A DNA stretch of 40,136 nt. It comes from Candidatus Bathyarchaeota archaeon. Lineage in GTDB: Archaea; Thermoproteota; Bathyarchaeia; Bathyarchaeales; Bathycorpusculaceae. The position numbers and the translations under genes were made by a program. The stretch covers positions 1 through 40,136 of the forward strand of contig JAOZHS010000003.1 of the NCBI GenBank assembly GCA_026014745.1, read 5' to 3'. The notes under the pieces were generated by a model. The model was not told the origin of the DNA, did no database searches, and was given only the letters and a program-made list of their open reading frames with translations. Positions 17,702-29,395 of this stretch are shown piece after piece; the stretch's first letter is position 1; each line of letters opens with the position of its first letter.

Positions 17702-17715
17702 AATTTTGATATAGC

Positions 17716-17990
17716 GGTAGATCAACATTTTTTGTGCTTGGTTATGTTGTGGTGCTGGTGGTGTGAAAGAAAAATCAGTCTATACATGCCCCCACATGCA
17801 CATGGCGGCAGTTTCAACATAGAGGCATGTTGGGTGTGTGGTAAACTTATGTTATCCCACACCTAAACAGACGCAGAAACACAAACCAAACCCAAAAAAC
17901 GAACACAACCTACAACTATCTTGTGGCAACCGTAAAACCGCCACGCCCACACAAAGAGATAAAACAAAATTTTGATCTAATGATAAAATA
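17716..17990 (+). mobile_element. Dispersed inverted-repeat (MITE-like) element, copy A, degenerate
   Basis: This about 270-nt stretch matches, in opposite orientation, the stretch at 28211-28471. Its ends are imperfect inverted repeats (TAGATCAACATTTTTTGTG at 17718-17736; the reverse complement of the right end reads TAGATCAAAATTTTGTTTT). Its core shares long blocks with copy B, for example TTCAACATAGAGGCATGTTG and CACACAAAGAGA. A reading frame from ATG 17787 encodes MPPHAHGGSFNIEACWVCG and stops at TAA after SHT. Further matching codons contain more stops, so the frame is broken relative to copy B. The right end merges with the A-rich region before 18016. Confidence 0.7.
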
Positions 17991-28052: not shown

Positions 28053-28210
28053 AACTTGTGTCTCCAAAATAATATTCTGATTTTAGTTTGATATAAACAG
28101 TTCGTGGATACCCCTGCCTAGGCTGTGTAGGTAGCAAGCTGCAGATTTTTGCGGTTGTTCAGTGGTATACTTATCTGCTCAGTTAGAGTCACCTACCCCT
28201 CCCTTATTTG

Positions 28211-28471
28211 TCAGTAGATCAAAATTTTGTTTGTCTCTTTGTGTGGGTGCTGCGGTTTACGGCACGCCACAAGATAACTGTTGGTTTGGGTTGCTTTTTG
28301 GGTTTGGAGCCTGTTTCTGCGTCTGTTTGGGTGTGGCATAACCGTATTTTACCACACGCCCAACATGCTTCTATGTTGAAGCCGTCACGGTGTGCATGTG
28401 GGAGTATGCATGGATTGGTTTTTTCCTCCACAAGAACCAGAATACAAACAAACTTTTCTGATCTACTGATA
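28211..28471 (-). mobile_element. Dispersed inverted-repeat (MITE-like) element, copy B
   Basis: This stretch of about 260 nt has imperfect terminal inverted repeats. The left end TCAGTAGATCAAAATTTTGT and the reverse complement of the right end, TCAGTAGATCAGAAAAGTTT, share 11 exact bases and then a TTTGTTTGT tract. It is the reverse-oriented relative of 17716-17990, with roughly 80 percent identity over the core by eye. No transposase is encoded, so movement would need help from elsewhere. It lies between the promoter of thioredoxin and the methyltransferase gene and separates the two transcription units. Confidence 0.72.
28219..28431 (-). CDS. Possible 70-residue Cys-containing protein inside the repeat element
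   Basis: GTG 28431 opens a 70-codon frame that stops in the terminal repeat. It contains PHAHRDGFNIEACWACGK, with a CxxC and nearby Cys and His residues that could bind a metal. Copy A at 17.8 kb encodes PHAHGGSFNIEACWVCGK in the matching place before an early stop. Protein-level similarity with mostly tolerated changes argues for past coding, but no ribosome site or promoter is evident. It could also be a chance frame in a structured repeat. Confidence 0.35.
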   Translation of the reverse strand: MEEKTNPCILPHAHRDGFNIEACWACGKIRLCHTQTDAETGSKPKKQPKPTVILWRAVNRSTHTKRQTKF

Positions 28472-28534: not shown

Positions 28535-29395
28535 TTGCGCATTATTGAACACAATAAAATCGATTTAGCAATCCTCAAAACCTATCTAACAAAGCCCCCT
28601 TTGTACACGGAAGGTACATCAAAATTTTGGGACGACGAATACGTTTCTTTGCAGATGTTGAAGCTTCATCTAAATCCTGAAGTAGACTCCGCCAGCCGAA
28701 CCAAAGCTACCCTCCAAGCAGAATCAGCCTTCATAATTCGTGAAACAGGTTTAACCGCGGCAAAGGCGGTGCTTGACTTAGGCTGCGGACCCGGATTGTA
28801 TGTAGGTGAATTTGCCAAAACGGGTGCACATGTAACAGGTGTGGACATTTCTAAGCGTTCAATAGAGTACGCTAACAAGAACATTAAACCCGCATATGCG
28901 AACGTAGACTTTGCGCAGATGAATTATTTTGACTTGGATTTTAGGGGGTTATTTGATGTTGTTACTCTGATTTTTTATGACTTTTGCGTGCTAAACCCAA
29001 CTGAGCAAAAGAATCTGTTGATGAGAATAAATAGTGCCTTAAAAATCGACGGTGTATTGGTCTTTGATGTGGTATCTGAAAGCTTCAAAGTAGCAGAATC
29101 CACTCAGGTCTCCATTTCTGAGGGCGAAGGGTTTTGGAGCCCTAAACCCTACCTAGAAATTGCCAACACCTACCTCTACGAGAACCCCAAAACATTGGGT
29201 CAACAGTACACAATCATAAGCGAAGATGGCTCCGTGGAGGTCACCAGACTCTACACCAGACTGTTCAACAAAAAGGAGCTTTCCGAGCTATTGAGCCAGT
29301 GTGGATTTAGAGTTGAAAAAATCTACAAAAACCTAAAAGGCGAACCCCTAAACGAGGGCTCAGAGACATACGGCATCTTTGCAAGAAAAGTATGA
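28535..29395 (+). CDS. Class I SAM-dependent methyltransferase
   Basis: This 286-residue enzyme starts at TTG 28535 (MRIIEHNKIDLAILK). The SAM-binding Rossmann fold begins with motif I AVLDLGCGPGLYVGEF (about 78-93), then VTGVDISKRSIEYA (acidic residue contacting the ribose) and FDVVTLIFYDFCVLNP (motif IV region). The protein has the extra N-terminal helix and C-terminal beta region of small-molecule methyltransferases of the UbiE/Methyltransf_25 type. It ends 2 nt from the convergent mtnA stop. The acceptor is unknown. Confidence 0.87.
   Translation: MRIIEHNKIDLAILKTYLTKPPLYTEGTSKFWDDEYVSLQMLKLHLNPEVDSASRTKATLQAESAFIIRETGLTAAKAVLDLGCGPGLYVGEFAKTGAHVTGVDISKRSIEYANKNIKPAYANVDFAQMNYFDLDFRGLFDVVTLIFYDFCVLNPTEQKNLLMRINSALKIDGVLVFDVVSESFKVAESTQVSISEGEGFWSPKPYLEIANTYLYENPKTLGQQYTIISEDGSVEVTRLYTRLFNKKELSELLSQCGFRVEKIYKNLKGEPLNEGSETYGIFARKV

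Follow-up and report, generated by a model that had tools for sequence, protein, structure and literature searches.

Enterobacterial ERIC-type repeats are conserved imperfect palindromic repeats located in intergenic regions. Their copy number is mentioned in a paper (PMC10969869) that also covers the SM1-SM4 MITEs of Sulfolobus, which are short, non-coding, moved in trans and present in 25-44 copies. Among insertion sequences, ISH3 elements have CRGT ends, 4-5 bp target duplications and a Y-(2)-R-(3)-E-(3)-R transposase motif, their described length being 1225-1500 bp (PMC2266710).

The family described here resembles each of these systems in part. Two of its copies, A and B, lie in the window, that is, the whole stretch of 40,136 nucleotides of Candidatus Bathyarchaeota archaeon DNA that was analysed. 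As with ERIC-type repeats, its members are conserved imperfect palindromic repeats between genes, but here a relative holds a transposase, framed by the same ends, that is a candidate for mobilising them. They are short, multicopy, non-coding and apparently moved in trans, like SM1-SM4, whereas the host lineage and the ends are different and the interior also exists as a repeat without terminal inverted repeats (TIRs) in other species. The insertion sequence of that relative (G018) shares CRGT ends, 4-bp duplications, a DDE transposase and the R-(3)-E-(3)-R spacing with the ISH3 family; unlike described members, it is only 1.11 kb long, F replaces the first Y of the motif, the score is below the curated cut-off, and this genome contains no copy of it. 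A limited search of the open-access literature returned no report of a MITE family of this sort in Bathyarchaeota. We consider it very probable that A and B belong to one non-autonomous MITE family (about 255-280 bp) and that an ISH3-like DDE transposase mobilised it in trans through cut-and-paste.

Copies A and B and their family in this genome

The sequence-only reading had proposed that a MITE-like element lies directly after a redox operon and is matched, in opposite orientation, further along the window. The pairing is borne out by BLAST (78% identity over 250 nt, E 3e-50, opposite strands), and both shared blocks quoted in that reading can be located: TTCAACATAGAGGCATGTTG at 17813-17832 in copy A and, in reverse complement form, at 28361-28380 in copy B, and CACACAAAGAGA at 17948-17959 in copy A, with its reverse complement at 28234-28245 in copy B. 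The imperfect TIRs (CRGTAGATCAAAA) are likewise present, the inverted arms being 75% complementary in copy A (17704-17731/17966-17993) and 89% in copy B (28207-28224/28456-28473). The features are as follows.

17715-17982, + strand: copy A, MITE-like element, 268 bp, refined boundaries
17715-17731, + strand: left terminal inverted repeat of copy A, CGGTAGATCAACATTTT
17966-17982, + strand: right terminal inverted repeat of copy A, AAAATTTTGATCTAATG
17711-17714, no strand: possible target duplication left of copy A, ATAG, three of four bases equal to the right side
17983-17986, no strand: possible target duplication right of copy A, ATAA
17762-17959, + strand: core repeat within copy A, profile match
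28212-28468, - strand: copy B, MITE-like element, 257 bp, refined boundaries
28212-28224, - strand: terminal inverted repeat of copy B, CAGTAGATCAAAA on the + strand
28456-28468, - strand: other terminal inverted repeat of copy B, TTCTGATCTACTG on the + strand
28234-28432, - strand: core repeat within copy B, profile match
28196-28209, - strand: G-rich TATA-like motif adjoining copy B, CCCCTCCCTTATTT on the + strand

Further copies, which the earlier reading suggested searching for, are numerous. A profile of the 198-nt core gives 36 matches in this genome (2.7 Mb, three contigs) and BLAST gives 34, so the family is far above chance expectation; sites with up to two mismatches to TTATCAGTAGATCAAAA are found in family members only. 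The elements are about 255-280 bp long and carry no intact gene. Both TIRs are clear in 7 copies, while the rest have one or none. In an alignment of 30 copies, which is nearly gap-free over the core, pairs mostly share 70-77% of positions and the closest pair 90%. Some copies look mosaic when read from this alignment, L018 and L025 having a common 5' half and L024 and L025 a common 3' half. In the tree, one clade (support 99/100) unites 25 of this genome's copies, A and B among them, and the remaining ones are interspersed with copies from other species.

Two side observations concern the copies and their neighbours. The core columns CAACAT-nnnnnn-ATGTTG (17814-17832 in copy A) hold a six-base loop that occurs in both orientations among the copies (AGAGGC or its reverse complement GCCTCT), as though the hairpin had been inverted. 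Several genes ending next to copies (L128-L163) encode products with a C-terminal hydrophobic segment.

Ends, candidate donor insertion sequence and target duplications

A genus-wide count finds many instances of the exact end WCAGTAGATCAAAA in two genomes, G018 (33) and G008 (29). The former is Candidatus Bathyarchaeota archaeon FK_Sedi_B_Bin.165 (record JAMDCQ010000020.1), of the same genus as the window genome. In these genomes the ends frame core MITEs, two unrelated short interiors (174-180 bp), one interior of 419 bp and one insertion sequence. The latter, found in G018, is 1113 bp long, has the same ends as the family and encodes a 347-aa transposase, thus providing a candidate autonomous partner. 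This protein contains a DDE domain and has its best match in the ISH3 family (E 4e-51); as its score of 173.8 bits is below the curated cut-off of 225, we would call it ISH3-like rather than a filed ISH3 member. CAGT at both ends of the insertion sequence fits the CRGT of ISH3, its perfect target duplication (TTAT/TTAT) fits the 4-5 bp expected, and the transposase motif, read by eye, is F-(2)-R-(3)-E-(3)-R. Family ends begin with CAGT or CGGT, and the duplications are of 4 bp. The autonomous transposase with the same ends that the sequence-only reading proposed to look for thus exists in a relative, but neither a transposase search nor a TIR pattern search found an ISH3-like transposase in this genome. 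A transposase fragment, 57% identical and lying between similar ends, is present in G012.

Target-site duplications, also suggested at the outset, were recovered in part. All seven core-less elements with these ends, the insertion sequence included, have an exact 4-bp duplication (TTAA, TTAT or ATAA), which exceeds shuffled pairings (p 0.009). In core-containing copies with both TIRs, by contrast, duplications are mostly degraded: an exact one is found in 4 of 24 (p 0.09 alone), copy A has kept three of four bases and copy B none. As a separate observation, L255-L260 (G018, G008) are other MITE types that have the same TIR, unrelated interiors and, in every case, exact 4-bp duplications. G018 has near-identical TIR copies, and this suggests that TIR elements moved recently in that genome.

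One might also assume a transposase of another type, e.g. IS630/Tc1-mariner, with a 2-bp TA duplication. Most ends are indeed bordered by TA, and the TTAT...ATAA pairs seen in several core copies would suit TA over 4 bp. Yet the one intact insertion sequence detected with such ends codes for an ISH3-like protein, and exact 4-bp duplications occur in all seven best-preserved elements, which makes this alternative very unlikely. The TA flanks were no longer read as Tc1/mariner once the ISH3-like transposase had been identified.

The surroundings of the elements are also peculiar. Of 32 elements with such ends, 25 have a G-rich, TATA-like motif of approximately ATAAGGGGAGGGG, reading outward, next to one or both ends, compared with 0.7% of 24-mers drawn at random from these loci; copy B has it on one side and copy A on none. 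For TTWWATAAGGGGAGGGG the counts are 47 in G018 and 57 in G008 (control 0-1), and low in this genome and in G006. In L330 this motif is palindromic around TTATATAA, and the G012 transposase remnant sits in a palindrome of this kind. The separate intergenic motif CTTTWWATAAGGGGAGGGGGTCT..GGCAGAGCAACAA (L330, L305-L334; G018, G008), of which there are about 50 per genome, is sometimes palindromic and appears to be the preferred neighbour of the ISH3-type elements.

The empty site at copy A and the core repeat across the genus

The operon left of copy A encodes a 2-hydroxyglutaryl-CoA dehydratase-like subunit, BadF-type ATPases and a ferredoxin-like protein, and is present throughout the genus. 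We compared this locus in 29 relatives, 28 of which have a locus extending beyond the ferredoxin-like gene, and the core was absent from all 29. Four of them (G029, G018, G010 and G015) have both genes that flank copy A, a homologue of the convergent surface-protein gene coming after the ferredoxin-like one with the site between them empty. The empty-site comparison covers one copy, A; to the right of copy B lies a methyltransferase-domain gene (28535-29395), of which no close relative turned up among 31 further genomes of the genus. With a multicopy family, common ends and the empty site at copy A, the MITE-like reading is upheld.

The sequence-only reading had named an alternative, paired regulatory RNA genes, which would have been indicated by a lack of further copies and by conserved synteny. 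For copy A such a conserved arrangement is disfavoured because the site is empty in relatives; elsewhere, a few TIR-less copies do have a position and orientation common to different species. For instance, L154 (G000) and L198 (G018), both TIR-less, apparently occupy one position, with neighbours, orientation and distances alike.

Outside the elements, the core is a repeat of about 200 nt restricted to the genus. It is found in 9-88 copies in G006, G012, G024 and G029, these numbers being lower bounds for draft relatives. Among the copies inspected in G006 (20 of 88) and G012 (3), not one showed both TIRs together; a few copies in G006 and G029 have a single weak match to a TIR. A longer conserved form of about 370 nt, extending roughly from -165 to +205 around the core start, is frequent in those species; this form, with a conserved GGGCCATGCTAGTGCCCGACTGCATTGCGCT, is common to at least six species (L153, L180, L192, L271, L281 and others). 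Viral contigs, phages and plasmids gave no match. The interior appears to be older than the ends; that it also occurs as an end-less repeat in other species goes beyond the first reading. Most G018 TIR copies fall in another group of the tree than the 25-copy clade, and a single clade of two-TIR copies is not rejected (p 0.30); hence one capture of the core by the ends, or two, would be compatible with the copies of G000 and G018.

Nature of the core and the most plausible history

The length of the core is within 1 nt of the mode in 102 of 116 copies, and this near-constancy may point to constraint. It is one of the reasons to consider that the copies are non-coding RNA genes or elements kept for their function, with ends that are promoters or terminators and a scatter that is due to duplication, not transposition. 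Short hairpins in the core are conserved, the longer form shared by several species has TATA-like stretches near its edges, and the TIR-less copies in shared positions would also agree with such a role. On the other hand, a helix scan brought up no covarying helix beyond the null of within-genome shuffles, the best score being 0.78 against shuffle maxima of 0.77-0.89; Rfam gave no match, and RNAalifold gave no support for an RNA gene on either strand (one set of z-scores was discounted, since column shuffles also destroy dinucleotide content). An RNA gene is therefore unsupported by these three approaches. Taken with the empty site at copy A and with ends that are those of an insertion sequence, this makes the RNA explanation improbable.

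The copies might also be the decayed remnants of a family of small protein-coding genes. In four genomes, conservative substitutions leave a weak but consistent signal in one + strand frame, which the consensus of several species keeps open. However, this frame is open in only 5 of 33 copies here, codon-phase bias is small, Pfam, NCBIfam and PHROG have no family match, and none of the tblastn matches listed shows a long open frame. Stop counts, codon phase, the substitution-score test and family searches thus left only a faint signal of a coding gene. It is possible that the core descended from a coding stretch; a present-day protein is unlikely, and as an account of the copies themselves the gene-family idea is the least credible of all. 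For A and B, an inert MITE interior is most likely.

Several findings do count against the MITE reading: the scarcity of exact duplications among core-containing copies (copy B having none), a transposase below the cut-off, the many copies here with one or no recognisable TIR, and a core length unusually constant for a decaying MITE. Nevertheless, the mobility of the family is well supported. The simplest history would begin with an old intergenic repeat, spread through the genus, that was captured between ISH3-type ends. An ISH3-like DDE transposase would have acted on these ends in trans, moving the present copies by cut-and-paste, and the captured core would have been amplified within each species, here mostly within this lineage. 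The transposase would then have been lost from this genome, the ends would have decayed, and the copies would now be stranded.

A more speculative idea, which we hold to be rather doubtful, is that the core of about 200 nt (long form about 370 nt) may be a functional, length-constrained, genus-specific intergenic module, either an RNA or a protein-binding array. It would have its own route of spreading (88 copies in G006, mostly without the ends), and would have been captured by ISH3-type ends and then scattered through two species.

For the uncultured Bathyarchaeota, these results record a MITE family together with a candidate donor transposon and what looks like a site preference. They also bring to light an intergenic repeat, confined to the genus and almost constant in length, which reaches up to 88 copies per genome and was apparently captured by transposon ends.
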